From Polytrichum commune (Eukaryota > Streptophyta > Polytrichopsida > Polytrichales > Polytrichaceae), in contig OX485806.1 of the NCBI GenBank assembly GCA_950295325.1, positions 40,362,001-40,426,000 of the forward strand: DNA of 64,000 nt. Reading direction: 5' to 3'. Below, piece by piece: positions 2,660 to 56,646 of this stretch. Below the pieces are notes generated by a model that worked only from the letters and a program-made list of their open reading frames with translations, had not been told where the DNA came from and ran no database searches. Position 1 is the first letter of the stretch. Each line of letters opens with the position of its first letter. The translations under genes and the position numbers were made by a program.

Positions 2660-4037
2660 GGCCAGGGATTCGTGGCACTCATGTATTCTCATTAGTGAGA
2701 GTTCATTCATCTTCGCGGATGAGATGAATCACTTTAGACACTTCCATACGTCGTCGGCTCCTTGTCTCAAGGGTTTCAAAAATACCAAGTTTTAGTAGTT
2801 TTAAAAATCCTAGTCTAATCTAATACTTAAGGCATCAATATAAAGGGGTATAGACATAAAAACATAAATAATGCCTCATATAGAAGCAAGTGGGGGCATC
2901 ATGTGTTGCCAACCTATCACTACTAATGCGGTTATTTTTAAGAAAAATTAACATGGGCGGATGTTAAATACCCCTCACGAACTTTCGGAGGTATCAAATC
3001 CGGGTTGTGGCAACCCTTAGAAATTTTCTAAACCCGACCGAAAATTGTTGTCCGCCTTGCCCAACTTCGAAAAAAACATTGCCCTTGCATTCTTGAAGGC
3101 CGCTTGACTACAAATCCCATATTGAATGCACTTCACCTTCAAGGTCTAAAATCCAATATATATGTGCACTTCCAATTAGCAAATAAGCAATTGATTGGGA
3201 TTTCATTCCGGAAGTGAAACCATCAATGAAGCACGTAATTAACTTGGAGCTCAAAAACATTACAAAATCCTCATTAACATTGAGGTTTAAATTTTGTGAC
3301 TTACCATTTAAAATTATATGTCATTCTAATGATAGATTAGTGCAAGTGTTCATAAGATGACAAAAATAAAACAATGAAGATAGAATAGAAAACATAGAAC
3401 AATAAAAATAAAAATAAAAATAATTTTTGAGGTAATATAATATAATATATAAATAAATGATATATTATTTGGAATTAGACTTGTGGGACAACGTTATGGA
3501 TGGGGTATACTCAGAAAATCATAAGTTTCTGACTATAGCCTATCTGAATTATTGTAATAATTTATCCTCGTCACATGGTATATATTAGTTATTTTAAAAT
3601 AAATTTTATTTATTTATTTAATTGATTTGTTTAGTTCACCGATTTATCATAAGGTGATATATATTATTTTGACATATTACAAATGTTTGAGCAAGCACAC
3701 CCGTGCAAAATAAATGAATTATGAACAAAAACAATGTTCATGACAACACGTCATAATTATATATTGCACACATTGATATCTTGCGATATTTATCAAAATA
3801 ACCATGTGGAATTCAAAGCCACATCATGGCCTTGGAAATAACTCATGGGAGGTTAGAAAATAGGCTTAGAGCATCCAAGGCCATATCATTGCCCCTTGCC
3901 AACTAATTAATATTTACAAAGTAGCTATGAGGGAGAAAATAGGTCTTACATCCCAACTCGGAGGTGTTTCACTACAGTAAGCTCCATCCGATTTTTGTTA
4001 CCGGATGACTTTACTTGAGTGCCACGAATCCCCGGCC
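2660..4037. mobile_element. Non-autonomous Mutator-like element, copy 1
   Basis: About 1.38 kb bounded by inverted ends: GGCCAGGGATTCGTGGCACT on the left, and on the right the same sequence inverted with one mismatch. The interior is collinear with 60403-61851 over nearly its whole length, for example the shared run 'ggcaacc' followed by 'cccgcccaacttcg'-like sequence and 'gattgggatttcattccgg'. Assignment to the Mutator class rests on copy 2, which has a clear 9-bp duplication. The flanks of this copy (TATATGTTG and GTTACAGTG) do not match, so it is older or rearranged. No transposase is encoded. Confidence 0.75.
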
Positions 4038-19907: not shown

Positions 19908-20363
19908 ACACTTATGTAGTGTTAGGTGTATCGCATTTGTACCCCGGGGACAATATCCAATGTCACATTTTCAGAGATTGGGGAGTTTGTTGGAAAAATA
20001 TTGAAATAAGCATGATAGTCCCCAACTAAATACAAAGAAAAAATGCATGTGCATACGGAACATAAGTGAGGATGACCTTGGCATGTTTCATATATTTGTA
20101 ATAAGAGTGCACTTGGGGCCAAGACTAAGTAAAGTTATATGCATCCATCTCTTATTGATTACGTTCATGACAATTTGTATGTAGTTGTTCTCATGTGTTT
20201 TTGTAGTTGTGGATATTTTAGGTGGTTGTTACTATGACTTGACGTTACATGGATGTTTGCAGATGGAGTGACCACGTTTAAATGCTTGAACTACAAAGAT
20301 TACCCTCTCTTTGGACATTTGTTGGCGATCGAGACAATTTCGTTATCTAGCAAATATTTCATC
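19908..20363 (+). promoter_or_regulatory. 5' flank of the PNL gene, shared with its paralogue
   Basis: This flank is homologous to 56647-57110, which lies upstream of the second PNL N-terminal relic, so the two shared an upstream region. Homology begins at ACACTTATGTAGT in both. An upstream in-frame ATG exists at 20253, but the aligned sequence in the paralogue has a one-base shift and stops before its own ATG. I therefore treat 20253-20363 as untranslated or degenerate. No TATA box is assigned. Confidence 0.5.
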
Positions 20364-22049
20364 ATGCCGAAGTTTTTACAATTGTTTTTTGAGCAACTAT
20401 CAAGGTTTTGGGATTTTATTGGCACTTGCTTTATGATGTTTTGGACATATCGACAAAGAGGATCCATTTACGAATATGACATTGGAGGTTTATTGCAATG
20501 GCAAAAGGAAGAAATACGTACACTTGAAGAGATTTCGAATGGACATGAAGTATTGAATAAGAAGCAATGTAAACATCTTCTCACCCAGCTTAACAAAGTT
20601 GTAGAATGTGTTGGTGAGATTATCACATTGAGTAGTGGGGTGCAAGAGTTTGGTGTTGCACTTGAGGAGCTATGTCGCATTACACAAAGAATGGGAGTTG
20701 TGGTGCGTGAATGCGGGAATCAAAATCGGTGGCGAGCAATTGCATTCCAAATAAATAACAAAGAGGCGTTTCGAGAACTTGTGTCCGATTTGAAGTGTTG
20801 TTGGGATGTGATATATGAGATGCACTCAGCAAACCATCCAGGGTTGGATCCTTTGAGGTTTACCATTGAACTTGACATGCCCACCTTGAAAGAGATTGAA
20901 CACGATGAAAAGATTCTTCAAGAAACTCTCAAGGACAGTAGCAACCATGAATGGAGAGAATATTTACAGCGAAGATTGCGGGACTCGCAACTAGAAGGTG
21001 GAGAGCTCGATAGTGTGGAGGTTTCGAATGTCATTGATTCATTGAAACCAAAGCTTCTTAAAAAGATTGGGATTGGAGTATATGGTGAAATCTATGAATC
21101 AATGTGGTTGGGATTTCAATGTGCAACAAAGGTTTTTCCACTTTGGAATGGAATCTATGGTTTCCGCAACGAGCTTGGAATTCTAGCAGGCTTGAGCCAT
21201 CCGAATCTCATCAAATTCATTTATTGTGGACTTGGATGGAGTAAAGATGAGTTATGTTCTTGGCCTCTCAAAGTTTTACGGAAATGGAAAGGAAGAAATG
21301 GTCAAAATTTTGAAAATTTGTATTTGGTGATGGAGTTCATGGACATGAGCTTGAGTGGCATGTTGAAGAAGCAATCTAAACCGTTATCATATCTTGTTGC
21401 AATTGATATCATGCACCAAATTGCAAGTGGCATGTGTTATCTTCATGACATGCATGTTGCTCATCTCGATTTAAAGCCTGAAAATGTGCTTCTGAGACCT
21501 AATTCCATGAAAGGAGGAAAATTGAATTCTAGCGGATTTTTGGTCAAGTTGGCTGACTATGGCACTTCCAAAACTGAGGTTCAAAGCAAAATTCTCAAGA
21601 AACAAAAATGCTATCGTGTTGGTACACCTAAGTATATGGCACTGGAGATAATTGATAAAGATCTTGGATCTCATGCAAGTTTATTTCAAGCTGATGTATG
21701 AACCTTTGCTATGACATGTTCAGAGATCTTGTCACAAACTGCTCCGTTTGGGGGCAATCATGTTCAAATCAGAGACATTTTGAAAAATATAAAGGAGTTT
21801 GAGAGGCCAGAATTGCCAATGAATTGTGAAGAGCTTACGAGGTTGATTGAGGAATGTTGGGTGGAGGATCCTTTACAAAGGCCAACATTTTTTGAAATTT
21901 GTGAAAAATTGGTTGCTTTGAAGAAAATGTTTTTGAGAGGAACATACTCGGCAACCCTATGTCCCGAGTTTGAAAACGATGGAGCCTTGCTCCAAAGGAA
22001 TTCAAGAATTGAGAAGGCAAAGGAGGTCAAAGAGAAACCTATCATAGAG
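20364..22049 (+). pseudogene. PNL exon 1: helical N-terminal region plus kinase-like domain
   Basis: Residues 1 to about 215 are predicted mainly helical, with heptad-like leucines (LLTQLNKVVECVGEI, ALEELCRITQRMGVVVRECG, FRELVSDLKCCWDVI). This layout resembles the four-helix HeLo/MLKL-type or plant UND-type bundles that precede kinases and ARM repeats; that likeness is an inference. The kinase-like domain follows. Its glycine loop GIGVYG is at 21069-21086 (about residue 236) and its lysine in CATKVF is at 21129 (about residue 256). Next come HPNLIKF, the catalytic loop HLDLKPENVLL (Asp about 369), DYG in place of DFG (Asp about 398), and ALE in place of APE. Lys, both Asp and Asn are kept, so catalysis is possible although HRD, DFG and APE are all altered. 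The C-lobe ends with ECW..DP..RPTF. TGA at 21699 truncates the protein within the kinase. Confidence 0.85.
21699..21701 (+). other. In-frame TGA stop in the kinase domain
   Basis: The frame reads GCT GAT GTA TGA ACC TTT GCT ATG. Plant kinases have an aromatic residue here (ADV-Y/W-S/T-FA), so the change is most simply TGG to TGA. The overlapping GTATGA looks like a donor site, but conserved kinase sequence continues without a gap, so no intron fits. Confidence 0.85.
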
Positions 22050-22198
22050 GTGCAAACCGTTTTGGTGTTGAAATGCCTAATAAAAACTATTTTCGTTTAG
22101 ATAGCTTGTCATTTGTATTTATTTGGATTAGAATATAGGTCGTTGAGGATGTAATTTGAATCAAAAGTAGGTTCTAATTGCATGCATTGTTTATGTAG
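22050..22198 (+). other. Inferred PNL intron 1 (149 bp)
   Basis: The donor is GTGCAA after ATAGAG; the acceptor is TTTATGTAG before GTGAAGGAAACAAC. Joining gives IIE-VKETTKQ in phase 0. The donor is not a strong consensus and a nearby alternative is possible; the acceptor is convincing. Confidence 0.55.
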
Positions 22199-23275
22199 GT
22201 GAAGGAAACAACAAAGCAAATGAACAACAAGGTGGTTGGTCTTCAACAAAACCTTACAAAAGTCAAGGATCGCCTCAAGGAAGTGAGGATTTTGGGCCTC
22301 ATTGGCATGGGTGGAATTGGGAAGACTACATTGGCAAATGCCGTATTTGATGAATTGAAGTTTGCATTCAATGCATCATGTTTTGTCAAAGACTTGAAGA
22401 ATAAGAGTGATTCCCTTGAGATTTTATGTGACATGTTAATAGACTTTAGAAAAGATCGTGAAAGCCTGCCAACAAATTTGGTGGATGCACAAACCATGTT
22501 GAAGCAATTCATGGTTGGTAAGAAGGTTCTCATAATATTGGATGATATAAGGGATCAAGATCAACTAGATGAACTTCTCCGTCCAGATTTTGTGAATGAC
22601 AATGCGGGCATCACATTGATTATAACAACCCGCAATTGGGACAAGATTAAATACCATGTCGAAGAGAAGGGCAAAATTGAGGTGGACACATTGGATGAAA
22701 ATGCAGCAAAGGAGCTTTTTATCTATCATTCATGTGGGACCGGAGGTTCTTTACCAGTTGAATTTTGTGATATAGGAGGAAGAATAGTAAAAGCTTGCAG
22801 TGGTTTGCCTTTAAGCCTAGGAGTATTGGGTGCATTTTTGCGGGATAAACGGAGGTTGCAAAGCTGGGAGCGAGCATTACAAAGAATCAATAGGGGAAGA
22901 TGTTTGGATGGTAACAAAGAAGAATTTGAAGCCACGAAACTTTGGAGCACATTGAGAATGAGTTTTGATGGATTGGGAATGTAGGAAAAAAAAATGTTTT
23001 TGGACATAGCGTGCTTCTTTTGCAAGGATGTTTGCCCTGAAGGCATGTCAGTAGATAGAGCCTTGTATGTGTGGACTAGTAATGGTTACCCCCCAATACA
23101 GTCATTCAATATTTTGACAGAGCGGTCATTGGTGAATATTGATGAAGATGGATGCATAGAAATGCTCGACCAACTACGTGACATGGGACGAATGATTGTG
23201 GAAACGTATGAAGAATATTTGGGCACTCGAGTTTGGAGTGTTGACTCAAAACCTTCAACTCAATCTACAAGCAAG
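22199..23275 (+). pseudogene. PNL exon 2: NB-ARC nucleotide-binding switch
   Basis: All main NB-ARC motifs are present in order. The P-loop GMGGIGKTTLANAVF starts at 22304. The kinase-2 block is VLIILDDI, near 22530. RNBS-B is LIITTRN and the GLPL block is CSGLPLSLGVLGAFLRD. RNBS-D is MFLDIACFF, from 22994, and the MHD position reads MLD (ATG CTC GAC, 23162-23170). The domain should bind ADP/ATP and switch the receptor. The LDDI aspartates and the P-loop lysine are intact. Histidine to leucine at MHD is notable because this residue holds ADP in the resting state. TAG at 22982-22984 falls between the winged-helix entry and RNBS-D. The motif set resembles TIR-type and PNL receptors rather than coiled-coil NLRs. 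No TIR domain is present. Confidence 0.9.
22982..22984 (+). other. In-frame TAG stop in the NB-ARC domain
   Basis: The frame reads GGA ATG TAG GAA AAA AAA ATG TTT TTG GAC. It replaces one residue of the acidic/basic linker that normally precedes MFLDIACFF (probably Lys, Gln or Glu). Reading resumes in the same frame. Confidence 0.85.
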
Positions 23276-23538
23276 GTATGAATTGATATGAACGATTTGT
23301 ATCAGAATGTTTGTTCCACGCAACCTTTGTAAAGTCTATACAAACCAAATGTGCAATTTGATTTAGATTTTATTTGACGGTTAATTTCATGTTTATGGCG
23401 GTCAAGATATTAATAATGAATTTAGATTCTTCTTTAGTCTTTGCAATGGATTACTTTATTCCATCATTATGCAAACCAATATGTGATTCTATTAATAATC
23501 TATATGTTTTGATATGATTTGTACAACTTGCAAAGTAG
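23276..23538 (+). other. Inferred PNL intron 2 (263 bp)
   Basis: The donor AAG-GTATGA at 23276 and the acceptor CAAAGTAG ending at 23538 join SK to GTNKVEGIL in phase 0. 'GT.KVEGI' is the usual start of the exon after NB-ARC in TIR-type and PNL receptors, which supports the junction. Confidence 0.8.
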
Positions 23539-25233
23539 GGAACCAATAAAGTGGAAGGTATATTATATAAAGGTTCGAACTACCATCTAGATTATTATTT
23601 AGACTTGGATCTAAGCCACCTTCGACTATTGTCAATTCATGCTGATATGGACAATGCATCAACCGACTTCCAATTATTCAAAGCATTTCTTTCACAAGCT
23701 CAAGAACACTCACGTCAATTGAAGGCCATATTTATCAATGGTATCTTACAACAACTGCCTCAACAACTATGGGAATTGCGTTCATTGGAAAGCTTTGATT
23801 TACAGGGATCGAAAATGCTTAAAGCATTGGATGAGGGACTTGGAAACTTGATTTTCTTGACGAATCTTCATCTTGAGGGATGTTCAAGCTTGACAACATT
23901 ACCCGAGGAACTTGGAAACCTCACTTCTTTGACAAAGCTTAATTTGAGCAGATGTTCAAGGTTGACAACATTACCCGAGGGACTTGGAAACCTCACTTCT
24001 TTGACGAAGCTTGGTTTGAATAAATGCTCAAGCTTGACCACATTACCCGAGGGACTTAGAAACCTCACTTCTTTGATGGAGCTTGATTTGAGGGAATGCT
24101 CAAGCTTGACAACATTACCTGAGGGACTTGGAAACCTCACTTCTTTGACGGAGCTTAATTTGTGGAGATGTTCAAGGTTGACAACATTACCCGAGGGACT
24201 TGGAAACCTCACTTCTTTGACGGAGCTTAATTTGTGGAGATGTTCAAGGTTGACAACATTACCCGAGCGACTTGGAAACCTCACTTCTTTGTCGAAGCTT
24301 GGTGTGCGAGAATGCTCAAGCTTGACAACATTACCCGAGAGTCTTGGAAACCTCACTTCTTTGACATGGCTTGATTTGAATGAATGCTCAAGCTTGACAA
24401 CATTACCCGAGGGACTTGGAAACATCACTTCATTGAACGGACTCTATTTGTACCTATGTTCAAGCTTGACAACATCACCCGAGGGACTTGGAAACCTCAC
24501 TTCTTTGACATGGCTTAATATGAATGAATGCTCAAGCTTGACCACATTACCCCGCGGACTTGGAAACCTCACTTCGTTGAAGGCACTCTATTTGTGGCAA
24601 TGTTCAAGCTTGACAAGATTACCTGAGGGACTTGGAAATCTCACTTCTTTAACGGAGCTTGATTTGTGGGGATGTTCAAGGTTGACAACATTACCCGAGG
24701 GACTTGGAAACCTCATTTCTTTGACGGAGCTTAATCTGAATGAATGCTCAAGCTTGACAACATTACCCGAGGAACTTGGAAACCTCACTTCTTTGACAAA
24801 GCTTAATTTGAGCAGATGTTCAAGGTTGATAATATTACCCGAGGGATTTGGAAACCTCACTTCTTTGACGGAGCTTAATCTGAATGAATGCTCAAACTTG
24901 ACAACATTACCCGAGGAACTTGGAAACCTCACTTCTTTGACAAAGTTTAATTTGAGCAGATGTTCAAGGTTGACAACATTACCCGAGGGACTTGGAAACC
25001 TCACTTCTTTGACGGAGCTTAATCTGAATGAATGCTCAAGCTTGACAACATTACCCGAGGGACTTGGAAACCTCACTTCTTTGACAAAGCTTAATTTGAG
25101 CAGATGTTCAAGGTTGACAACATTACCCGAGGGACTTGGAAACCTCACTTCTTTGACGGAGCTTGATTTGAAGGAATGCTCAAGCTTGACAACATTACCT
25201 GAGGGACTTGGAAACCTCACTTCTTTGACAAAG
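23539..25233 (+). pseudogene. PNL exon 3: LRR domain, 19 full 72-bp units plus a partial unit
   Basis: After a linker (GTNKVEGILYKGSN to LQQLPQQLWELRSLESFDL) come units of exactly 24 residues from 23827. Each follows LPEGLGNLTSLTELNL..CS.LTT. Nineteen whole units end at 25194 and thirteen codons of a twentieth end exactly where the LTR-like insert begins. Variable residues are confined to the solvent-exposed positions of each beta-strand and to Glu/Arg/Asn/Trp before the Cys. Units 13-18 alternate between a TELNLNECSSL and a TKLNLSRCSRL type, giving a 144-bp higher-order repeat, so the array expanded recently. After the insert junction the frame adds CHGMRC... and stops, so the encoded C-terminus is truncated. 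The array continues at 25651-25789 and beyond. Confidence 0.9.
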
Positions 25234-25650
25234 TGTCACGGTATGCGGTGTCGACGGCCGCACCTTATCCATTAGATTTCATCCATCTAGATTTGGATGG
25301 ATGAATCTAGATGTGGAGAGGAAGGTTCCTAAGGGAGGAGCCTCCTCCTTGGCTTGGCATTCTTGCCAAGTCAAGTCTTGTGAGTGAGTGTGTGGAAAGA
25401 GCTTGTGTGAGGTGTAGATTGCATGTGTATGCAATAAATCTTGAGTTCTTCTCCCCTCTCTTGCACTCTTGGATTCTTTTTTTGTGGAGTGAGAGATAGC
25501 TTGACTAATTATGTGCATTTGAAGAGAGATTAGAGCTCTTATGAATGTTTGACTCTCTTTCTTCTCTGTCGAGGTGTGTTGTTTATGTGTGTCTTTGCTA
25601 TGTTTTAGTGTTGTTTGTTAATGGTGGTTGGTACTCGAGCTGCAGTGACA
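25234..25650 (+). mobile_element. LTR-like insertion in the LRR array (probable solo LTR)
   Basis: The insert begins TGTCACGG exactly at the break in LRR unit 20. It has an inverted match GTGACA ending at 25650, giving TG...CA ends. An AATAAA is present near 25432. About 22 further foreign bases (to about 25672) precede the resumed LRR sequence, so the right edge is uncertain. The possible duplication (CAAAG versus CAAGAG) is imperfect. No coding sequence is present. Confidence 0.6.
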
Positions 25651-25672
25651 CACGATCGCTATTTACACGACA

Positions 25673-25789
25673 AGAGCTTAATTTGTGAAGATGTTCAAGC
25701 TAGACAACATTACCCGAGGGACTTGGAAACCTCACTTCTTTGACGAAGCTTGGTGTGCGAGAATGCTCAAGCTTGACAACATTACCCGA
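25673..25789 (+). pseudogene. LRR array fragment between two insertions
   Basis: The sequence resumes as GAGCTTAATTTGTGAAG and runs to TTACCCGA. It matches units 6-7 of the main array, including the distinctive 'SKLGVREC'-type unit. It is not the continuation expected after unit 20, so it starts a second, duplicated block of units. Confidence 0.8.
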
Positions 25790-28327
25790 TGTGAGCCCAA
25801 AATTGTGCACACATTCTAATTTGATTCAAAATTACATTCAAACATTAGGATTAGCACTTGGTAGAATCCGCCTTAGAGCTATTTAGAATTGAAGAGGTTT
25901 TAATGTCGTTGTTGTTGAACTCGAATTATGGAGCTCAACTTTGCGGAAAAGAGAAAGAAACCAAAAAGAATGTAGTTCAATTTAATTAGTTGGGGGTTGA
26001 TGTTAAGTAAGGAATGGGTTGGGCAAGTAATTAAGTGTTCGTTTTAGGCAGTTGCTATTGTCATTTTTGGGAAGTGGCTAGGTTGAAGAAGGAGAGGAAC
26101 CGCTACTCCGAGTTGTGGATGAGGCCTCGGGGGGTGCACCTTTCATTAAAACCTAGAATCACGTGCGTTCACTGCATACTCTAAAAACCCCCTATATACA
26201 AGTTATTTTTTGTGAAATGAAGTAATACACATACAATTGCAACAATAAATATACAAGTGACAATATGTATACACAAAAAAACATCCATTCATATATAGTC
26301 ATTAACATAAGTATACAAATATACTTTTGAACAATAACCAACCCCTATAATATGTATAACAAAATATCCTAGCTTTCATCAACAAAGTCGTTGAAAACTT
26401 TTTCATCTCCCGGATGTAACTCATAAACATTTGATTCACCAATATATGTCATTATAGCCAATGCAATTATTGTCTCTAAGTCTACCATCAAATGATCAGT
26501 AAGATAATATGTCCACTTGTTGTTAGCCCCTTTTTGATACCAACATAAACCAATCTCCTTGTTACTTTGAGCTGAACGAATCATTTCAAAACCCTAATAC
26601 TGCCTCTTTCCCCGATATTACCTTGACACCTTGTACATGGTTCATACTACCCTATACGGTTGCTAACGAAAATCGTTAATCCTAATTTCATCCAATATGA
26701 AAACTTATGATATGTAGTATAGTAACAGTACCATACAAGTACAATTATTGTATACTTTTTAAAGGCCTTCCATATATGTACGTAACTATAAATTATAACA
26801 TGTATACCATATATATACGTAATATGGCAAGGTCCAAATCAATACCCCTCCTGTGCACTCACGTATACTCGTACATGTTTAGTACAGTGCACCCCCCGAG
26901 GATGAGGCCCGAATCTCGGATCCAACAGGGGGGGTCCCTGGAAGGCTAGAGAGCGGCCGCATTTTCTCTCTCTCTCTCTCTTGGTCTGAGCAAGGAGGGG
27001 CCGAAGCATTGGCAGCGGGGAATGACCCAAGCGCGAAGGTCATGGATTGTGATTGATAGCTGGGCACAAGGCTGCGAGAGCCTCCCAACCCCTGCCTACT
27101 AGGGAAGGTCGGAAGACACAGAGAAAAAGAGGAAACCAGGAGGGACATGGCGGGTTTCATCTACTGGGGGTTGGAGCTTGGCGGAATTCAACGGCCGTCC
27201 AGCTTCGGAGTTGAGTCGCACATTGTGAGGATTGAGGTGGAGGTTGCTGGCCTCTGGTTGGGAAAGCAATCTAGAGTGAAGCAGGGTGGTGTCGATTTGG
27301 GAGAGGTAAGAGGAATTCAGGTGATGGCCATCAGGGCGAAGGAAGGAGAGATGAGTATAATGCACCAGGGGAGGAGTTTTATGGAATGCTGAACTGCGGG
27401 AGGCCGGGGTTTAAGGCATTCAGTCACCCACATCCACTCAACAGCGGAGAGAAATACAGAGGAGGCAAGGGGAAATGGGCAGCTTGGGTTAGGTAGGAAG
27501 AAGGGGACGAGCATTTTGCTCTGGGTGGTCATGCAACCGCGCGGGAAGTGGACTGGGTGACCGACTGAGATCAGAGCGGGGAACTGCCTCCATAACCTTG
27601 ACTGCAAAATGCAGAGGACGGTTGGATCAGGGGATCAGCTGATGGAGTGATGGGCCGCAAGTGAGAAGAAGTTCACCCGTGGTAATCCTCGAGCTGGGAG
27701 GTTGGGGGTGATTCGGTGGCAGCAGAGAAGTCTGCCCCCTCAAAGATTGACCTGTGAATTGAAGAGGAGTGGACAGGAGGCAGTTCGGTGGGGCTTCGGG
27801 CAACAGGGCTCGGGCTGCTGAGTCCAGGGACTCGGTAATGGTATGATGTGAGGCAGACTGGGAAATGAAGACCGGCAGAGCCGGTGGTTAACTGAATTGA
27901 ATACCACGGCCAGAGTCACGTTGGAATGAGGCTGGATTGAAGGAAGGGAGGTTGATAGGATTAGGAAGTGTTTAGGAAAGGGAAGACTTAATTAGATGAA
28001 TCCTAGTTGGAAGGGCGGCCAGGCCTAACTCTCAATTGAGGTGGCCTCAAACCAAACTTGAACTAGCGAGTTAGGATAGGGGTTGGGGTTTAAGGATTAG
28101 CATGATGAGGAATTAAGGAGGGGGTGTGTGGAGCGAGGCTCACAAGGAAAGAGGCATTTCTAAATGGTTGTAACTCGATCCCTTGGAGTAAAGTTGTGTG
28201 TGTGAAAGCATGATTGTGGAAACATTGGCTACCACCCCAAATTGTCTTAGTGGTGTGGGTAGATCACATGTGAGCCATAAGCACTCACCCGGACTACGAC
28301 GCATAGGGTGGGGGTTTGTGGCTGACA
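25790..28327. mobile_element. Non-coding TG...CA element A with 5-bp TSD (CCCGA)
   Basis: A 2,538-bp insert starting TGTGAGCCCAAAAT and ending GTTTGTGGCTGACA. The ends form a short inverted repeat (TGTGAGCC / GGCTGACA, one mismatch). CCCGA is duplicated at 25785-25789 and 28328-28332, and removing one copy restores the LRR unit. TG...CA with a 5-bp duplication fits an LTR retrotransposon derivative (a long solo LTR or a large non-autonomous element). I could not find internal LTR boundaries or gag/pol. The middle (26.9-27.9 kb) is GC- and G-rich with a (CT)n tract. The open frames there are low-complexity shadows. Confidence 0.75.
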
Positions 28328-28405
28328 CCCGAGGGACTTGGAAACCTCACTTCGTTGAAGGGACTCTATTTTTACCTATGTTCAAGGTTGACAACATTAC
28401 CCGAG
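28328..28405 (+). pseudogene. LRR array fragment between elements A and B
   Basis: Just over one unit, reading PEGLGNLTSLKGLYFYLCSRLTTLPE. It corresponds to unit 9 of the main array (the LYLYLC type). Unit 8 is missing in this duplicated block or was gained in the first. Confidence 0.85.
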
Positions 28406-30075
28406 TGTGAGCCCAAAATGTGGGCCACATGACTTAGTAATCATAAAAATCATAAAAATATGGAAGTTGTGGGTTGTTTGGGATAAAAGGGAACAAAAGC
28501 TTAGAATTAGTTAAAGGGGTAGAGTTGTGTGTCGATTGGGATTTGATTGGGTTACTTATGGGAGCCAAGTTATCAATAAAATAAAAATAAACAAAAGAAG
28601 TTGGCTGGGTAAACGGAATGCCCAATGACTATAGGGCTGGGAAGGTGTTTAGGCCGGGGTAATTATGTTTTAATATGCATTGTTTTAGTTTTTCTCTTTT
28701 TAGACACTGCCAGCAAGGAAATGGGGAAGGCCTTCCTGGAAGGGGGAATTCGGTGAACACAGGGACCGAAGATTGAGATCAGGAGGGGCTTATCCACGGG
28801 AGAGGAGAGAGAACAGGAGCCTGCCGAATTCCTCCTCGGCAGCAGGGGAAGGCATTAGGCTACAGAGGATGCTTGGGTAAGGGCCGACGATGAAAATGCG
28901 AGGGGGAACGGAATGTTCTTTCTTGAGGATGGATGCGCCGTTGGTGAAGGGCGGTAGGCTTGCATAAGGGAGAGCGTGGATCAGAAAAACACAAGACTGC
29001 AAGGGTGGCAGCCGAGGGGGAAGACCAGGCAGAGTTCAAAATGCCGAAGGGGTGAGTGACCTGAAATTGACCCATCCACATTCTCCTTCAATGCTACCCA
29101 ACTGGCTGTGCAATCCTCAGCTGCGGGTTGAGGAAGGGGCCGATGGAATCTGGGCGAGTGGCCAGCAGAATTTTGAGGACGGTGATGGAATGCTGAAGAA
29201 AGGCGTGGAAGGGGGATTGCACTGGGTGGAGAGTGCTGGATAGTGGTGTGTGCAAGTAGAGGGAAGGGGAGGCACGGAGTGACAATGAGCTAGGCGCCAC
29301 ATTCTCAACCCCCGGAACGCCCACATTCATACCATAGTTGAGCACATTGAAAAAAAAGGTTGGAAGGGAATTCCCCAGCATTGAGATCAGTTGACGGCGG
29401 CGGCCTGATGGGGAGCTGGATCGGATCAGAAGGGAGGATAGGATGGCCTCGCTTGGATAAGGTGCCGTTTTCAGTTGCTGGGAACAAAGGGTTGGGCCTA
29501 ACCGAGGAAGCGCTGCCATTCCTCAACGCTGTCACTCAAGGGGGAGCTGGTCTCGGCCCATAGACCGAACTGCAGCTGCAAGAGTTGGCTGCCGCCCTCG
29601 AGACAGACCACCAGGGGGGAGGGTAACGGCAGTAGACATTCTGCCCAGTAGGTTCTAGTTAGTGAGTGTGAGATTTGCTAGCAGCTGGTAGGGAATTGAT
29701 TTCGTTTTGAGAGGCTTGGGATTTTCAATGCCCATGCACCCTTAAGCATTGTGATAGTTCAATGGGGGGGACTAATGGGGATTAGGATAGTGAGTGAGAA
29801 TTAGGTTTATTCCACAAGCATTGGTGAATGCTAATGTATGGTATTTCCTTCATTATTAAGTGCATGTGTGCATTGATTTCAATTATTAAAACACCAACCA
29901 ACATAGCTGGGAGGATTGCACGGGTTGATTCGGACATGTAAGCGGTGGGCTACACATGAACGATGACATTAGAGGGGTTGGAGTGTGGAGTTACATGTGG
30001 ATTGTGTTAAAAGCGTGTGGGCCGTGAATTCTCACCCGGATTACGACGCATAAGGGTGGGAGTTTGTGGCTGACA
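28406..30075. mobile_element. Non-coding TG...CA element B with 5-bp TSD (CCGAG)
   Basis: A 1,670-bp relative of element A. It starts TGTGAGCCCAAAATG and shares the last 45 or so bases with A, including TACGACGCATA and GTTTGTGGCTGACA. CCGAG is duplicated at 28401-28405 and 30076-30080. The interior is G-rich (28.7-29.7 kb) and only loosely similar to A, so the two are diverged family members and not a recent pair. The open frames of 60-141 residues here are chance. Confidence 0.75.
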
Positions 30076-31306: not shown

Positions 31307-34300
31307 GGGAGGCCCCTGTACACGAGCCTTACGCGTTACACTAGATGTCCATGAACTCACACCAGGCACCTCCATGCTATTATATCTTAAGACCTTTGTG
31401 CAACAGAAGGCCTAGTTGAGCCATGTGGGTGTATTAGAAGATCAATTCACAAATTTTGTTGTTGGCCGTCGTAACATACGACCTAGAGAAACATGGCTAA
31501 TCCTTGCTAAAATTTCTCTTCAACTCTAGCCAATGTATTTATCCCGGTCAAGTATTATGTTGACTACCATGAAAATTAACCGATTGACATTCATAAATCA
31601 AGTGCCCGCTAACCGCGGTTGTAACCTCTTCCGACCATGCACATATTTGTGATGAATCTTTTAAATGAATATCTAGGTTCTAGGGCCACCTTGTGGCAAA
31701 ATGTAAGTATCACTTTAGGCTCAAGGATGTTTTTGAATATTTATAGACATGTTGCTTTAACATGAAAAAGTTCCCCCCAATCTTCACACAAACCAAAGGC
31801 ATATATAGGTCAACTTTGTGCCGAGAAGGATTATTGGGGCATTTCCATGCATGTGAAGATTTTTGACATGCAAGTCAAGATCAACAAGGATGAAAATTGC
31901 AACCGAATTCGAATTATGGGATCAATTATGGGCCTTTGTATCTAAGTTGTAGTGCCTTTTTTTTCAAAATTTCAAGAAAGTCAAGATGACAACAACATTG
32001 GATTGATGAAACCACATTTGGATAATAACGCATGTTTTTATCCATATATGAGCACATTTGTACACAAAATATTATTTTGGGGGATGGTTATGATGATTTC
32101 ATCAATGGAAAATGATAGACTATATTATTTGTATTTTTACATTTTGCAATATGTTATTCTTTGCCTAGAAATATAGGGTTGCGTGAAACTGAGCTTCAGT
32201 GGGTGGTTGATGTCAGATTTGCATAACATCACGTAACAAACACAATACAATTAGCATGATGTTTGCAAGCAGGGAGACAAAATGAAGTTGTAACAAGACT
32301 TTCGCTCATCCAGGTGGAGAACACTTCATGCATCTTCGTTGTGACAATGTTGCAAATCACTTATTGTTTGTATGTGGAAGCCAATGGCAATGTATGAGTT
32401 TCTTCTTCATGTTGCGTGTTAGGGTTTTGTGGACTAGACATTGGATTGCGACCGTTCAAATATCCACAATTTGAACATTCTTTGGAGATTGCCATAGGTC
32501 ACACAAAACCCACCCACTATTCTTATGATAAGTTCTAGTGACCAATTGCCCAAGTTGAGGAATGAATAAGTTTACTCACCTGACAAATGTTATCAAGTGC
32601 GCATACAGTAATATGAAGGAATGTCGTAGAATATGTGACTGCGGTCCATTCCATGAGTTTTAGTGTATTTTTGTTACACGCTTCCATTGCACAATTCACT
32701 GCGCTCAGGCTTTGGAAATCGTAACATACATTACTCCTTGGTTCTTGCGTTTCAGTTGGAAGATGCAAACATACATTGATATAAGTAAGCTTTCCTAGCT
32801 TTCAGGTTCTCTTCGTAAGTTATCTTCATGAACTCGTTGACTTGAAGAAGCTCCGAGAAGCTCCAACATGGGTTAGTGTTGGAGAATATTCCCGAGATAG
32901 AGTCCATTGTTTAAATTTTGAATTTTACCATTGGTTTTCCACTCTTATAATGCCTCAATTAATCTGGAAATGCCTATGGGTGAAGCACTTCCATTATAGA
33001 CTTGGATGTTTATGTGATTGGATTCCGTCAAAGGTTGATTATAATATGGGTTGAATATTGGATGAATGTGAAATTTTGAAAACAAATATCTTTGAGCGAA
33101 AATGGGACAATTGGCATGATGATTGCAAATAGGTGAATCAAATCAAGTCATTGCCTACAATATTGGGTGATTGCATAATATTATTCACATGGCCTGCCAA
33201 ATAGTTGCCGCACACTCTGCCAACCTGGTTATCTTCCACATTCAAATTAAATGTGGCCACTATTTGGGAACCATTCTCACTAATAGGGGGCCCCACTAAA
33301 CAACTCACAATATCTTAATAAAATTATGGGAAGAATTTTTCATGTAAACATACTTTTAGTATTACAATGTCGATATTATTAGTCCAAACAAGGTCCTAGG
33401 GTTGATTGACATGTTAATAGACATGAGTTTGACCCAAATACAAAATTGGGTTTAGATGCAAAGGTTAGGTCATGTCAAGTGTGTAATAACTCATGCTATG
33501 AGTTAGGTCAATTTTGACAATTCATTGTGACACAAGTAGGATTTGTGCGAAACTCAATTTTGAAACAATCCCATGTTTTGTACCAAGTAATGTGGTGCAA
33601 CTTGTGTCTTTATTTGGTGACATTGCAAAACAAAATTTATTCATGTAACCTAATGGCATTGAGGCATATTCCAAGGATTATTCGTTTTTACCACATGTTC
33701 CTAGGTGCTAAATTACCCAAAGCTCCTTGTGGTTGTAGTTTTGCAATCATTGTTCTGGAGTTGTGTGTGTAGTGGTCGATCTACATGTAATTTTGAAGAG
33801 GGCATCTATAGAATCAATCAATCTTGGTCAACCCTACCTTACTACATCATCAATAGCTAGACTTATAGAATGTATACACCAACAAAAATGCAGATGTAAC
33901 TACAATGGAGAAAACAAAATTTGAAGGTAATCACAAAGGATTGCAAAATATATTTTTTAACCCTTAAATGTCCAAGGAGTTTCCATGGGACTTTGAATTC
34001 TTTGGCATGATTTGTACCTAGGTAATTGTGTTCTAAGACAATTTTGCAAACCATGACCGAACTTAATTTAGGCAATCTACCTATTTTAAAAAAAACAATC
34101 ATCCAAGTAAAAGATAAATTTTGAATGAGAAATCATGAGAATTCCCTACAAATGTTATTTCATTTGTAGTTTATTTGTCATGTATTGCCATATTTGTTTG
34201 TCACTTCTCACAACACATTGGGCTCAATATAGGTTGACCATGATGTACACTATTACATGTTATTTTTATTGTATATCTAATTTACATGATCTCAGAACTG

Positions 34301-36359
34301 AAATCATCAAACATTGATTCCTTCATTCCACAAGTGTGAATGCAATTTCATGATAATTTCAACCCATATGCATGTTTTTCTTAGGTTATTTCCATATGTT
34401 ATTTCCAAAAATTCTCCATCTATAGATATTTGAAATTTACAACCCTCATGTCAAAGATCATCGTTTGTGTCCAAAAAAGCCTTGGACCTTCAACCCTAGA
34501 GAATGTAGGGAGCTCATTGTAACAGATATATACGCAAATTTGGAATCCTCACGACGTCGTCAAATCATTATTTTGAAATTTATGGGTTTGAAACTTGTGT
34601 GAGTAATTTTATTGGAGCTTGTACACAGCCTAGGGAGTTCACTTAGTACATTTTCAAAATGACGTGTGGCATAATATAGCGGGATTAAATTTTTTTTACA
34701 TAAAATTATAAAATAATTCCAAATAATGAAGGGTCCGTTAAAAGTAAATAACCCCATTACAAGTAAGGTAGATAGGTTTGAAATGTGGGCCATTCTTTTT
34801 TGTAAAAATAATATAGGGGTTGAAAATAAGGATCCTAGGATGTAAATTTAGTAGGATAAATTTTGTACGAATGCCTCACGAGGGATGGATGAAAAATGGC
34901 TCATCATTTGCCCAAAAATAAATGAAAATGGCAGTGCCGTTACTAGTTGTCTTCCTACACTGCCATTTGTATAATACACCTAGGATTTTGTTTCGTCCTC
35001 GTGTCTACTATGTTTTGGGCAATTTTTTTTGTTGAAGCTCCTTCTTGTTGAAGCTTATGGTAACAAAGTCCATTAAGTATGTCTTGTTGTAGTTGGTTTA
35101 GGATCTCCTTTGTAGAGTCTCCTTTGTAGTTGCTTTAGGATCAAGGATGGTTGTGAAGTTCCATATATAGGGCCGTGACAATGTGAGAGTTTGGGTAACC
35201 CCTACTCTTAGATTTTGACGTTTGTATGTTTTTTTTTTTTTTTTTTTTTTGGGTCATAAATCGCTTGTTTATTTAGTGCATAATTGGACACTAAGGTATA
35301 GGACATGGTTACATAGGTTTGTTTTGTTTTGCATACCCTAAACCCACATGCACAAACTTGTAGGGAACCACAAGAATTCTACATAGCTATGTTGATTGGG
35401 GTTAATTTTGGGCAACACGGTCACACTTTTACGAAGCATGTGCTTTGTTTGTGAACACACACTCAATCTTGTTGTGTTTCCACCCTAAGCCTTCTTTTTT
35501 TTATGCATGAAGGTTATGTTTTATGGGCTGTAAAACTGCAAATTTTGAAGCAAATTTTAAACTGCATAATGCTTAAGTATCCTTGTGTTCTTCATCACTT
35601 GCAAATGTATGATATCATTCAAGTTATGGTATGGGAATGATATGCATCATGTTATCACATTTGTTCTTTTATGAAGTGGTTAACAATACACATATTTTGC
35701 ACAAGTTAAGATTTGTTTTGATGAGCACAAGTCTTTCACATGTATGATAAGTATTTGCACTTAGTTTTTGCAATTATATGTATGCTTTATGCCTTTTTTT
35801 TGCCAAGTTTTTCCCCACCACTTTTCCATTACATACACTTTTAAATTTTGTTTAAAATTATTAAAAGGAATGTAGACTACAAAAAAATTGCAATGACATG
35901 GGCAATATAAGTAGTGATAGGGTGCAAAAAAAAGTGTATGTAATGAAATTATAGAGAATTAAGTAATTATAGAGAGCTTTTAATTCATGCCTTGGAGGTA
36001 AATAGCCCTTAAACAAATAGCCCTTCACCGCACGTGGTGCACAAAAATCCTATAGAGTGACCTACCTACTTAAGGTACAAAGCCAATGCTAACTGCATTA
36101 TTAAGGTTCTACATTCTAACGTCAAGACATAGGAAGGATTCGAGTGAAAATTCACTTGAAGGGAGGTACCCCTCCATTATCATACAACTAAAAAAATTTA
36201 AGGTATTAATCTAGATCAACTCTACAAAATGTACGCAAATCCATGTCACCATCCATGTATTATAATGATGAATAGTAGTTGAAACCATTGATGTAAGCTT
36301 TCTTAGCCTTTATTATTATTATTATGAACCTCATCAATGACTTGAAGATGCTCCAAGAA

Positions 36360-36730
36360 GCTCCAACATAAGGTAGACGTGCCTAAATAGAACAAAGTGG
36401 TATGTGATTATGGTTCACATCTAAGAACAAACATCAAAAAGACACATTTCTAAGAAATGAGTGAACTACTAGCTCAAAATATGTTGACCATTCTAAGTTC
36501 AGTATTCAACACAATTGTGTGTTGAACTTATATGACCACTCAATGAGTAGGAGAATCTTCACTTTGACAATGAATAAGATATTCATATGAACTTTGAAAA
36601 TTATGAGGCAAACCACTACGGTCACAATTTGGATTCCCTAATTATGTCACGTTAATAACGTATTTCGTATTCTATGAGAAGCGAGTGCAAATAGGAAAGT
36701 ATCCATCTAAGGCACATCTACCTTAGGTCG
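36360..36730. repeat. Dispersed middle-repetitive element, best local example
   Basis: It begins near 'taaggtagacgtgcct', passes 'gtggtatgtgattatggttc' and 'tatgaccactcaatgag', and ends near 'tttcgtattctatgagaag'. Relatives occur at about 9225-9420 with 10470-10640, 37665-38050, 50820-51240, 51600-51733 with 53329-53570, 59890-60130 and 62050-62450. Ends and duplications were not resolved, so its class is unknown. Confidence 0.6.
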
Positions 36731-37112
36731 TTGTGAAAGAATGCTCTTAAGAACTCTCTCCACGTGACATTAGAGAACCCTAGAGAGAAGGTCCTTAGGG
36801 CTGATTCTCTTCTTAGCTACAAAGGATTCACATGAATGTACATGGTGTTAGCTCCAAAGCAAGGTGGACAGGACATGGCCTCATATAGTACCAAGGATAA
36901 TATCCCGTCGTTCCCCGAGCCACTTAACTTAGTATTATTTTGTAGGTCTCCGAACTCTTACATTGCTCCTGGCTAGCCAAAATGGCATGCAAGGATTGGT
37001 TGAGGGCTGCCTAGCTCCAGTCTTTTCGTAATGTCTGCACTTGGTGGCCATTTGCAAACATTTGTGTCACTGAAGACTTGAATGCGAAGGTGGCAATTGT
37101 CCAAAGGGAGCA

Positions 37113-37443
37113 CACTACACTAAATAGGTAGATTAGTGTTGGAAACACTAATAGTCAACGAAAACGCTAAATGTAAATTGTCTCTATAGTGTTAGAACAC
37201 TAAATGTCAACTCTAACACTATTTGTACCAAGTAGTAACTTTAAATATTTACATGAGCGCATTTAGTGTTAGATGATATTTTGTAAATCTTGGAATGAAG
37301 AATTGAAGGAAGAAGAATATGAGAACCTCGTAAAAGGTATAATTTGTTCAAACCCTATTCAAACACTAATTGTAATATCAGTTGAAAATTAGTGTTTTAG
37401 GTAACTATTGCATCTAACACTAATCTACCTATTTAGTGTAGTG
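37113..37443. mobile_element. MITE with 28-bp perfect terminal inverted repeats
   Basis: The left end CACTACACTAAATAGGTAGA plus TTAGTGTT is matched perfectly by its inverse ending at 37443. It is absent from the matching place in copy 2 (near 51602), so it inserted after the segmental duplication or was lost there. The interior holds several further AACACTAA motifs. No obvious target duplication is visible because another element abuts its right end. Confidence 0.8.
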
Positions 37444-37659
37444 ATCGGGGAGATTTTTGGGCATGATCGGTTGAGATCCAAGTGTTTGCAAGTCCAACCG
37501 GTTACATGTTGACAGCCTTCGGTTTCTTTTACTAAAGTGGGGTATATTCTATAAATTCCTCTAAAATGATCGGTAATTTTCCTACAATTTTGAACTTCAA
37601 CCGGTTATTTTTCAAACTCAACCGGTTCATTTGTAACTAACTGCCTGTTCTCCCCGATC
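37443..37659. mobile_element. Short inverted-repeat element (217 bp), copy 1
   Basis: Ends are GATCGGGGAGA and its inverse. The interior carries repeated AACCGGTT motifs. Close copies of nearly the same length lie at 55424-55644 and, inverted, at 62473-62692. Decayed relatives form the last part of the repeats at 230-440, 39285-39480 and 55905-56095. It is non-coding. Confidence 0.75.
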
Positions 37660-39056
37660 CGTGGAGGACACTTGGGTTGGGCTCAAGTAGACATGCCCAA
37701 TTTGGTTACTTTTTTTTTGGGACACCTATATTTCAGTGGTGCATGGTTTGGTGTGGTTCCAAGAACACATACCAAAAATACATGTTTTGTAAAAGAGATT
37801 AGATTGCATGTTGAAAGCATGATAATGATTCTAGGCTCGTATATCAATTTAACAAGGGGGACCTAGATGACCGTATAAATGAGCACGAGAATGTTAACTT
37901 CGTGATAATGTGTTCATCTTAGCTCCAAAAGTTCCGAGAAAAGTGGCTACAGCCTCAATTTGGATTTGCTAACCAACCCGTATTAAATACGTGTTTCATA
38001 TCTTGGGAAAAGTGGGCTATTCGTAAAGAATAATCCTTTAACACTCCTTTACTTTTCCAACAATTTGGATTTTTGGAAATACCCTATGTGAATGTGTGCA
38101 AAGCAAAATCTTTAATTTTTTTGCCAAGTGGTGGCATTTTAGATAATTTATTGATGAAGTGTGAGTAGCCAATAGGTAAACATCCATATAAGGTAGAGGG
38201 TACTAAAACCAACACCCCACCCAAAACCAACACCAATAAATGCCTCCCAATCACCGACAACCTATTGCCTTGAACCGTTTCCCATGGTGTAGGAGTGCCC
38301 GGGCCCACGGAGTGATGGTTCTAGGTGCCATTAGTAGTGCCACCTCATACCAGCCTCCACTACCTCCATGTAGGGTAGGTAATGGGTTCCACTTTATCTC
38401 GGGTGACTTTCAACGTGGGTTTAGGGTGGCATGTCAATGCATATTCTAGCCATTCTATTCACATGGGGGAATGGTTGAAGCCCACAATGCCAAGGAGGTA
38501 CGCCCACAAAGCCTAAGGGGGTCAGTTATGGATACAAAGGGGGTCAATTCTAGGCACAAAGGGGGTCAGTTTTAGGCAACAAGGGGGACGGTACTTGGGA
38601 TACAAGGGGATGGTTCTACAACCAAACCTAATGGGGTCATGAAAGTGGCCATGTTGGACTTTGATCTAGCTTGAGTCTTGCACATGATTATGTTGTGTTG
38701 GTTCTAAACAAACTTGTGTTCATTCTAGGCAATGGATGTGGAGGTCCTCATCATATGCAAAGGCTATCATACATGGGACCTAGAGATTGGTTCAAAGAAG
38801 CTAATAGTTTTGACTTTGAATATTCATCAAATATTCAATGGAGGCTTTTATTTCTTTGCACCTGTGTTTAGCCCAAAAGTTATTAAGAATTTTCTTATAT
38901 AACAACCACATAGCAAGGCTAGATGAGGCAAACATCAACATTAGGCACGCAGTAAGTACCTAGACGAGGTGAGGTAAACCTAGTCCATAAATTCGTAAAA
39001 GCTTGAGTGAGGTAAGCAGCCTACCTTGCTCTGCAACTAAGGGGAAGGCCTTCCAA

Positions 39057-39480
39057 ACTCAACTAACTAAGCATCCACGTGGAGAGACAGAGAAATGTGC
39101 TCCTTAGTTACAAAGCTAGGATCCTCAAACGTGCTACCTCCTGCTGCTCACCTGAGTACCTTATCCAAGACCCCACACCATGGGCCATGGCCATTTGATT
39201 AATTTTGTTGTATTATTACATGTATGAAGACCACGTGCTTGCACCTCACAGAGCAGAGCTTTGTACATTGGTACAGTGCCCAGGCAGATCTTTGGGCATA
39301 ATGGGTCAACAATCCTAGTGTGTCTAAGCCCAACCAGTTACATGTTGGGAGCTCGATTTTTCTTTATTAATTCGAGGTATATTCTATAGATTCCTTTAAA
39401 ATGATCTGCAGTTTTCTCGAAGACTTGAACTTTTCAACCAGTTCTTTCTCAAACTCAACCAGTTCATCTAAGTTGTCGAA
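39057..39480. repeat. Local repeat copy abutting an LRR fragment
   Basis: Matches 1-440 and 55720-56095. Its right end is a diverged form of the 217-bp inverted-repeat element. The LRR fragment starts immediately after 'ttcatctaagttg'. Confidence 0.75.
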
Positions 39481-40095
39481 TTGTTGGAGCTTGACAACAT
39501 TGCCCGAGGGATTTGACAATCTCACACCTTTGGCCACACTTGATTTGTCAAGAGGTTCTCAAGCTTGAGAACATTACCCGAAGGATTTGGAAAGCTTATT
39601 TTGTTGATGGAGCTTTATTTGAAGAATATTTTAAGCTTGACAACATTACTTGAGGAAATTGAAAACTTCATTTCTTTGACAAGGCTTAATTTGTCAAATA
39701 TGCTCAAACGTGGGAACGTTATCCGAGGGACTTGGGAGCCTCATTCTTTGACAGAGCCTTATTTGAGGAATATTTACAGCTTGACATCATTACTTGAGAA
39801 ACGTGGAAACTTCACTTCTTTGATGAGGCTTAATTTGTCAAAATGTTCAAGCTTGAGAACGTTACCCGAGGGACTTGGAAACCTCACTTCTTTGACCACG
39901 CCAATTTCTCAGTATATTGGACGTTGGGGACATTACCCGTGGGATTTGAAAACCTCACTTCTTTGATGAAGCTTAATTTGTCAAATTTGGTCGAGCTTGA
40001 CAACAATACCCAAGGGACTTGGGAAACCTCACTTCTTTGACCACGCTTGATTTGTGGGGATGCTCAAGCTTGACAACACTAATTGAGGGACCACA
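39481..40095 (+). pseudogene. Decayed LRR fragment of an NLR, array C
   Basis: About eight LRR units with the AACATTACCCGAGGG(A/G)(C/T)TTGG core. The reading frame shifts several times, so it appears as short pieces (for example LPEGLGNLTSLTTP near 39890). Its unit types (LMRLNLSKCSSLRTLPEGL) match array D at 56096-56640. It ends near 40095, with no kinase relic after it, unlike array D. Confidence 0.85.
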
Positions 40096-40975
40096 AACTA
40101 TGAGTTACCAGAGTTAGAGAAGAGTCTTCTACTAGACATGTTCTTAGTCGATCAATTTCTTGACACATCGTGCAAAGCTTTTTGTAAAAAAATTCAAAGA
40201 GTCGTGCATAGATTGGAGGCTCCTATAACCACATATAGAAGCACCCGTAGATGTATTGCATCGGAGCACAAATTGTAGCAGAATAGCAATTGTTAGAGTA
40301 ATCATGGGTTCCACAGTTTTTTGGGAGTTTTGGAAACAATTTAATAATTTCATTGAGTTGTATACATGGCAGGTGCATGACTGCAAATACTCTCTGACGT
40401 ATGAGCAACATTTTTTGGAAATTGTAAGTTTTCAACTTAACTTGCTTCCCGAATCCTTCTTGTTCAACTCCTTACTAGTCACTCTTCCTTCACATGTGCA
40501 TCATAACAATGTTGGACCGTAGTTTACTTTTGGTAATTATGTAAATGCATTCAACATAATTACATATGTTCATAAATGGGCCTCCTTTAACGGTTCCTTC
40601 AGTCACGAAGGGTTTACTTTTTGTGCTCAAGAGGTCTAGTTGAGGTTTGCATCATAATATAAAGTCCCAATTTTGTAAAACTTTGTTGGTTCTCCAAGTC
40701 AATCTATATTTTCAACTCTAGCTATGGCACATCTTAGTGTCACACAAATTCCTTCTTATTTACTTAATTTTGTTTACACATCCTACCTTACTACATTCAT
40801 GTATTAGGCATCACCCCTTACTTGGTTGGTGCACCCCTTAGCTCGGAACCTTCTAAGGCCTTGTGCAGTTTTAATCTGGATGTTGGGACTTGCTAATACT
40901 GGATTGCTCCTAGACAGAAATCTCAGATGTGGTAATGTTGTGTGGAAATTTTGTTGTTGGTTATCTTGTGATCAG
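40096..40975. other. No recognised gene; TatD intron at the right end
   Basis: A stretch at 40110-40280 is open and protein-like (CKKIQRVVHRLEAP) but unrecognised. 40740-40830 repeats 5610-5705. 40878-40955 resembles the TatD intron at 16975-17045. Confidence 0.45.
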
Positions 40976-49192: not shown

Positions 49193-49334
49193 TAGCAAGC
49201 TTTCGTAGCTTTCAAGTTCTCCTCGTAAACTATCCTCATTAAAATATGGACTTGAAGAAGCTCCGAGAAGCTCCAACATGGGTTAGTGTTGGAGAATATT
49301 CTTGAGGTAGAGTCCACTGTCTGAAGCTTTGAAG

Positions 49335-49835
49335 CTACTACACTGAATATCATATTTAGTGAGGGAGTGTTGATAGTGTGCGTGGGAAATTAGTGAAGGT
49401 GATACTAAATTTCCTCATGCTATGAAATTAGTGCCATCAAAAGATCTAGGAAGCATTATTCATCTCAACACTATTCACTAAAATACTATTCATAGTAAAG
49501 TACTAGGGTATTCATATTGGCATTGTTCACTAACAACCATGTGTTTGTACATAGTCATTTTTATCACTTTTCAAACACCTTAGAGCACGCACTAATTTCC
49601 TTGAAGTGTGTGGTAAATGAGCATGTATTCATGAATTTAGTATCACTTAGTAAAACAATTCAGCCCTTAACCAATCTAGAGACTTGGCAAAATAGTGAGT
49701 GTTCCCGTAATTAGTACCCCATGCACTATTTGGGATAATCAATGTGGCTCAAAATAGATGCCACGTGGAAACGTGACTATTAACTCATGGGATCGGTGTT
49801 GATGTTATGAAAAGTGTTTTTCTCGGTGAATCATT
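49335..49835. mobile_element. Unclassified insertion present only in copy 2
   Basis: Copy 1 runs straight through at about 32910. Here about 500 bp intervene, starting near CACTGAATATCATATTTAGTG, a palindrome related to the end of the MITE at 12746. No matching right end was found, so it is either a one-ended relic or a different element. Confidence 0.5.
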
Positions 49836-54436: not shown

Positions 54437-54505
54437 ATGGTCTACTGGAATTTGCGTCAGACCCACCTCCAAGAGGTGGGCTTGACGCAAATTCCGGGAG
54501 ACCAT
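54437..54505. repeat. 69-bp near-perfect hairpin inside H2
   Basis: Arms of 33 bases (54437-54469 and 54473-54505) pair with four mismatches around a 3-base loop. The core is GGAATTTGCGTCA. It could fold as a single RNA stem if transcribed. Confidence 0.85.
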
Positions 54506-54545
54506 GACTTTTTTAATATTTTTTCCAGCAGGACAGATTTCTGGA

Positions 54546-54610
54546 CAGACTGCATGGCAGATTCCAAGACAGATTCCAAGACAGATTCCAAGACAGATTC
54601 CAGGACAGAC
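54546..54610. repeat. 12-bp minisatellite inside H2
   Basis: About five tandem copies of GACAGATTCCAA, with variant first and last units. The minus-strand frame across it gives a repeated CLGI motif that is not a gene. Confidence 0.8.
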
Positions 54611-55644: not shown

Positions 55645-55719
55645 TGAGATAAACCTAGTCGGTAAATTTGTAAAGCTTGAGTGAGGTAAGTAGCCTACCT
55701 TGCTCTGCAACTAGGGGAA

Positions 55720-56640: not shown

Positions 56641-56646
56641 TGGAAT

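Follow-up and report, generated by a model that had tools for sequence, protein, structure and literature searches.

Is a receptor gene whose reading frame is open except for two stop codons newly dead, long dead, or still able to work? The question is raised by a locus that begins at position 20364 of a 64,000-nucleotide stretch of the genome of the moss Polytrichum commune (assembly GCA_950295325.1, contig OX485806.1, positions 40,362,001 to 40,426,000 of the forward strand). This stretch is called the window below, and positions are counted within it. A first-pass annotation read 20364-25233 as a nearly intact immune receptor of the protein kinase-nucleotide-binding site-leucine-rich repeat (PNL) class, interrupted only by a TGA at 21699 and a TAG at 22982.

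The word "only" was wrong. Position 25233 is not the end of the gene but the left edge of an insertion, the first of three within a leucine-rich repeat (LRR) exon that continues to about 31310 and carries a further five nonsense codons as well as two frameshifts. In total, seven nonsense codons, two frameshifts, and three insertions prevent a full product. The locus is very probably a multiply disabled pseudogene of a moss-type PNL immune receptor, broken in steps. The conclusion draws on the class of the gene, its two proximal stops, the insertions set in the register of the repeat, the distal lesions, and the uneven density of lesions along the gene.

An open frame of the PNL class

The proximal part of the gene comprises three exons (20364-22049, 22199-23275, and 23539-25233), all like the rest of the gene on the plus strand and amounting to 4458 nt or 1486 codons. 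There are two in-frame stops and no frameshifts, so that the frameshift-free coding sequence of about 4.4 kb reported earlier is borne out. When each exon was shuffled 1000 times, the mean number of stops was 42 for exon 1, 27 for exon 2, and 33 for exon 3 (lowest values 25, 12, and 16), and the frame is thus open far beyond chance.

A Pfam search found these domains: protein kinase, NB-ARC, the winged-helix domain WHD_ROQ1, and LRRs. Exon 1 encodes an N-terminal region (approximately residues 1-225) and the kinase (Pkinase, E 2.3e-26 for the piece before the stop and 5.1e-35 with X at the stop). Its start codon at 20364 has a counterpart ATG at 57111 in a sibling copy described below. The first 30 residues or so (20364-20460) are strongly hydrophobic and are predicted by AlphaFold, with low confidence, to be helical; they may form a membrane-active N-terminus. 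Exon 2 encodes the NB-ARC domain (E 8.1e-33) and WHD_ROQ1 (E 4.8e-9), with the TAG at 22982 inside it. The proximal part of exon 3 (23539-25233), free of stops and frameshifts, encodes a linker, 19 complete LRR units of 24 residues, as counted in the first-pass annotation, and part of a twentieth (LRR_14, E 4.9e-58).

Among solved proteins, the one nearest to the NB-ARC domain of exon 2 is Roq1 (E 2.4e-38), a TNL. Scans of bacterial, archaeal, and viral contigs gave no relatives of the domain, a result that says little, as those contigs include no plants. The earlier description of the motifs as intact stands for the presence of the domains but is slightly off in detail: the MHD-type triplet of the NB-ARC domain is MLD, and the APE-type triplet of the kinase is ALE.

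Intron 1 (22050-22198, 149 bp) separates kinase from NB-ARC, and intron 2 (23276-23538, 263 bp) separates NB-ARC from the LRRs. Both follow the GT-AG rule, and both are in phase 0. Phase-0 introns at these two borders are a feature of the PNL class of mosses (also called Pkn-NLR), described from Physcomitrella patens (PMC3352924). Because the domain order and the phase-0 introns at both borders agree in this gene, its assignment to the PNL class, first made from the letters of the sequence, is well supported. In P. patens, full PNL genes make up 6 of the 45 members of the class (PMC3352924), so incomplete members are common.

Three insertions in one LRR exon

Beyond 25233, LRR coding resumes at 25673, breaks at 25790, resumes at 28328, breaks again at 28406, and resumes at 30076. 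Insertion 1 (25234-25672, 439 bp) has the ends TGTC...GACA and an imperfect 4-bp duplication (AAAG/AGAG), and it brings a stop into the LRR frame at 25273-25275. The piece of LRR exon that follows (25673-25789, about 1.6 units) carries nonsense codons at 25686 and 25701; from 25674 to 25789 it is 95.7% identical to 24223-24338. Insertion 2 (25790-28327, 2538 bp, TGTGAGCC...GGCTGACA) is solo-LTR-like (LTR, long terminal repeat) and is flanked by an exact 5-bp target-site duplication, CCCGA, the second copy of which forms the leading 5 bases of the next piece of LRR exon (28328-28405, about one unit). Insertion 3 (28406-30075, 1670 bp, TGTGAGCC...GGCTGACA) also has an exact 5-bp target-site duplication, CCGAG.

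The repeat register makes it possible to prove that an LRR array has been invaded in this way. Each LRR unit spans 72 bp. If the insert and one copy of the duplication are subtracted from the spacing between the cores on either side, what remains is 72 bp for insertion 2 and again 72 bp for insertion 3. For insertion 1, the spacing minus the insert is 76, or 72 + 4, which fits its imperfect 4-bp duplication. Since the register is unbroken across all three insertions, this is one LRR exon of 39 recognisable cores, split three times. Stopping the reading at the edge of an insertion makes a dead gene look nearly intact.

With their TG...CA ends and 5-bp target-site duplications, both solo-LTR features, insertions 2 and 3 are most likely solo LTRs of an LTR retrotransposon. 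Their termini are alike (88% over 25 aligned positions at the left, 93% over 45 at the right). Comparison of the window with itself found no longer stretch shared by the two, and their interiors are largely unrelated. They entered adjacent LRR units at points separated by 78 bp and possibly represent a family that favours this LRR repeat.

Uneven decay along the gene

The remainder of the exon (30076 to approximately 31310) has 17 recognisable unit cores, nonsense codons at 30469, 30505, and 30697, and two frameshifts, the register moving by +1 between 30087 and 30160 and by +2 between 31168 and 31242. Together with 25686 and 25701, this makes five nonsense codons in the LRR frame distal of insertion 1. 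There are thus seven lesions in 473 distal codons as against two in 1486 proximal ones (binomial P 0.0011, or 0.011 for nonsense codons alone). The difference persists when only LRR codons are considered on the proximal side, where none of 467 is affected (P 0.008; nonsense alone, 0.032).

Substitutions can be compared over the 19 proximal and 14 distal complete LRR units. Amino-acid changes at conserved LRR positions affect 31 of 380 proximal codons and 41 of 280 distal ones (Fisher P 0.011), while the silent rates are equal, 0.0816 and 0.0821. The denser damage distal of insertion 1 suggests that the insertion shortened the receptor while its upstream part was still constrained. That the insertion came first and that the proximal part was then under constraint for a while is favoured, not proven.

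The following history might account for what is found. The LRR exon, with its roughly 39 units, would first have been interrupted by the insertions behind unit 19. The stretch downstream of insertion 1 would then have decayed freely, while the reading frame upstream of it survived for a longer time, perhaps in a constrained short-LRR receptor whose frame closed at 25275. Only later would the upstream part have acquired its two nonsense codons. Read in this way, the uneven density of lesions gives an order of decay that can be tested.

The two proximal nonsense codons imply a neutral divergence of about 0.8-1.0% (95% range 0.1-3.7%), on the assumption that both mark free decay. The very recent loss proposed in the first-pass annotation is therefore supported for the proximal 4.46 kb taken alone, but it does not describe the gene as a whole, which is heavily broken.

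Several points weigh against this history. The ratio of changed to silent positions does not differ significantly between the proximal and distal units (Fisher P 0.15), and the proximal/distal tests were chosen post hoc and rest on small counts. Gene conversion among the repeats could also have kept the proximal units clean. The nonsense codons might be earlier than the insertions. Finally, base errors are in principle a possible source of both proximal stops.

If the stops were such errors, and if the LRR region were naturally short, ending at 25275 inside insertion 1, then the locus would be a working receptor allele. The proximal gene is otherwise clean, its splice sites are intact, it has no frameshifts, and the shortened frame has a usable stop at 25273-25275. 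Against this, two independent base errors would be required within 4.46 kb, and the window's other copy, the sibling, has nonsense codons of its own, so that real decay is common here. We consider a working allele improbable. Base errors, suggested earlier for the stops, could explain single bases but not the insertions and distal lesions together. Successive disablement of the gene remains the far better account.

The two proximal stops

Both stops reported earlier are real as read, each in frame within 1486 otherwise open codons. The TGA (21699-21701) falls at residue 446 in the C-lobe of the kinase, where all five alignments shown have an aromatic residue (four distinct proteins, as two of the chains are MAP3K9). 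The TAG (22982-22984) falls at residue 824, between the GLPL and RNBS-D motifs. The triplet that follows is ACC in the first case and GAA in the second.

Two isolated stops in an open frame invite the thought that a full-length protein is made nonetheless, by readthrough or by U-to-C editing, as the first-pass annotation had considered. Neither found support. Neither ACC nor GAA after a stop is known as a leaky context for readthrough. As for editing, claims of nuclear U-to-C changes exist for seven Arabidopsis sites (PMC8001311), so that the process is conceivable in principle, but editing of the TGA would put a non-aromatic residue at a column where the five alignments shown are aromatic throughout. 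In any event, the insertions have cut the LRR exon apart, and so readthrough, editing, and splicing would all leave the gene broken. We give a full-length protein made by either of the first two routes almost no credence.

Splicing might instead skip both stops and keep the domains. A donor-like GTATGA lies at 21696, just before the TGA, its six bases identical to those of the real donor of intron 2, and a weak acceptor need not prevent use, as the real acceptor of intron 2 is only 38% pyrimidines. All frame-keeping introns of 50-500 bp within the exons that would remove a stop were listed, 147 for the TGA and 115 for the TAG. The shortest would remove 32 codons of the kinase C-lobe in the first case and 26 codons of the NB-ARC region in the second, so that every candidate costs at least 32 or at least 26 codons, respectively. 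A loose donor pattern leaves 17 and 12 candidates, the shortest of which take 33 and 60 codons. If a pyrimidine-rich [CT]AG acceptor is demanded as well, none is left for the TGA and one for the TAG, at a cost of 97 codons. Use of the GTATGA donor is possible, giving a truncating splice form and not one that keeps the kinase. A form that skips both stops and preserves the domains is exceedingly unlikely.

A more modest proposal is that the gene yields a short product, made up of the N-terminal region and an incomplete kinase, that stops at 21698 and acts by itself as a truncated immune protein. The frame is open for 445 codons from 20364, and plants are known to have truncated receptors with N-terminal domains only. 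The stop lies inside the kinase C-lobe, however, where, judging from the alignments, folding of the product would be improbable.

The sibling copy bears on the same proposal. It is a remnant on the plus strand (56647-57555), 84% identical to 19908-20808, that retains 456 bp of 5' flank and the first 148 codons, of which three are nonsense codons (57207, 57390, and 57480). Counted against the main copy, its differences show no excess at the third codon position: 22 of 149 sites differ at position 1, 14 of 148 at position 2, and 15 of 148 at position 3. Differences in the flank are more frequent (84/453), and there are no indels in 445 coding positions as against six in 456 of the flank (Fisher P 0.03). 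With fewer coding differences and fewer indels, the region must have been constrained at some time. As proof of lasting constraint, however, the sibling is unconvincing, for lack of a third-position excess, despite the scarcity of coding indels. A short product in use today seems highly improbable.

Surroundings of the gene in the window

The sibling remnant is not alone. Remnants of LRRs are present at about 39480-40105 and about 55990-56702, the sibling directly following the second of these (taken to about 56645), and the window is a graveyard of nucleotide-binding leucine-rich repeat receptor (NLR) genes. The presence of these other broken relatives counts in favour of the main copy being a pseudogene too. 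As a finding, an NLR pseudogene within a cluster of NLR remnants is ordinary; its history of decay is what is instructive. A search of the open-access literature for moss NLR pseudogenes with insertions found none.

The blocks 31376-40022 and 45104-56643 share collinear stretches of 77-87% identity, and both end in LRR remnants. An old segmental duplication, since broken up by insertions and deletions, is the probable origin. On the minus strand at 47409-48566 is an open frame of 385 codons resembling transposases of the DDE_1 superfamily (Pfam E 1.7e-35). A repeat roughly 1.4 kb long occurs in two dispersed copies, 2665-4037 and 60408-61851 (84% identical). A near-tandem duplication of 217 bp (54865-55081 and 55125-55341) is probably young, since its copies are 98% identical. 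Scans of the 64-kb window for tRNAs and against Rfam gave no matches.

The kinase and plant MLKL

When exon 1 was read through with an X in place of the stop and compared with 177635 distinct solved sequences, the best match was 6ka4 (E 3.7e-27), a plant MLKL, followed by 6lba (E 7.8e-25) and then MAP3K9 (4e-18). The second of these is named as an MLKL protein in PMC10881975. When the query is cut at the stop, 6ka4 is still first (E 3.3e-12), but 6lba falls to 27th, and with residues 1-324 alone, both are absent from the best 60 matches. Because the rank is lost without the C-lobe, it is there that the likeness resides.

The N-terminal region adds little. It showed no match to PF06760, the HeLo family of plant MLKL, at E up to 1. 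Alone against the solved structures, it gave no MLKL but three matches at the level of chance, the best with E 0.83. The alignment with 6lba does extend back to residue 64, but it was rejected as evidence of a HeLo domain, because inclusion of the region adds little to the score (90.1 bits without it, 90.6 with it). With 6ka4, the score rises from 92.8 to 98.3 bits, the alignment beginning at residue 185. The AlphaFold models (mean pLDDT, the predicted local confidence, 37.2 for exon 1 before the stop and 43.6 for the N-terminal region) are too poor to judge a HeLo fold.

Membership in plant MLKL fails on two features: the HeLo family was not found in the N-terminus, as described above, and the catalytic residues are not lost. 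The lysine, HLD, and DYG, whose loss would mark a pseudokinase, are all present. On the strength of C-lobe similarity, an MLKL-like kinase is still a reasonable lead, worth following in intact genes. A kinase from P. patens is reported to give a modest and variable cell-death response (PMC11218826). The available portions of articles on MLKL and on moss or bryophyte NLRs (PMC11218826, PMC10952240, PMC8559963, and PMC9950082) do not state that PNL kinases are MLKL-like; as these are open-access sources only, this is weak evidence of novelty.

Comparison with known systems

The gene resembles described PNL genes in its order of kinase, NB-ARC, and LRR and in the phase-0 introns at both domain borders. 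It may also share their affinity, as its NB-ARC domain is nearest to Roq1 among solved proteins and PMC3352924 groups PNL with TNLs. It differs from them in that this copy, with its approximately 39 LRR units, carries seven nonsense codons, two frameshifts, and three insertions.

Monocots too have kinase-NLRs, wheat Tsn1 among them, in which a kinase precedes NB-ARC-LRR (PMC11218826 and PMC10952240). Those receptors are set apart by description, being placed within the CC/CC-RPW8 clade, a hint of independent acquisition (PMC11218826).

With plant MLKL (6ka4 and 6lba), the kinase has in common the C-lobe wording PF..(N/S)H.Q and ERP. In 6ka4, the lysine has become R, the aspartate of HxD has become E, and that of the DFG-type motif has become G; in 6lba, the lysine and the DFG-type aspartate have changed in the same way, while the HxD aspartate is kept. 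The kinase of the moss gene retains all three residues, and, unlike plant MLKL, it is fused to NB-ARC-LRR.

By analogy with its class, the intact receptor would have sensed a ligand through its LRRs, used NB-ARC as its nucleotide switch, and acted through the N-terminal region and kinase. One may speculate, with doubt outweighing conviction, that moss PNLs begin with a relative of plant MLKL that is catalytically competent, and hence are NLRs with a built-in output of MLKL type, of which this copy would be a fossil that had lived on for a while with a short LRR domain once an insertion had cut it. If so, the NLR switch and MLKL-type execution, the latter in an output module of N-terminal region and kinase, would be joined in a single chain. 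The likeness, should it hold in intact moss PNLs, would hint at the job of a poorly understood class of receptors.

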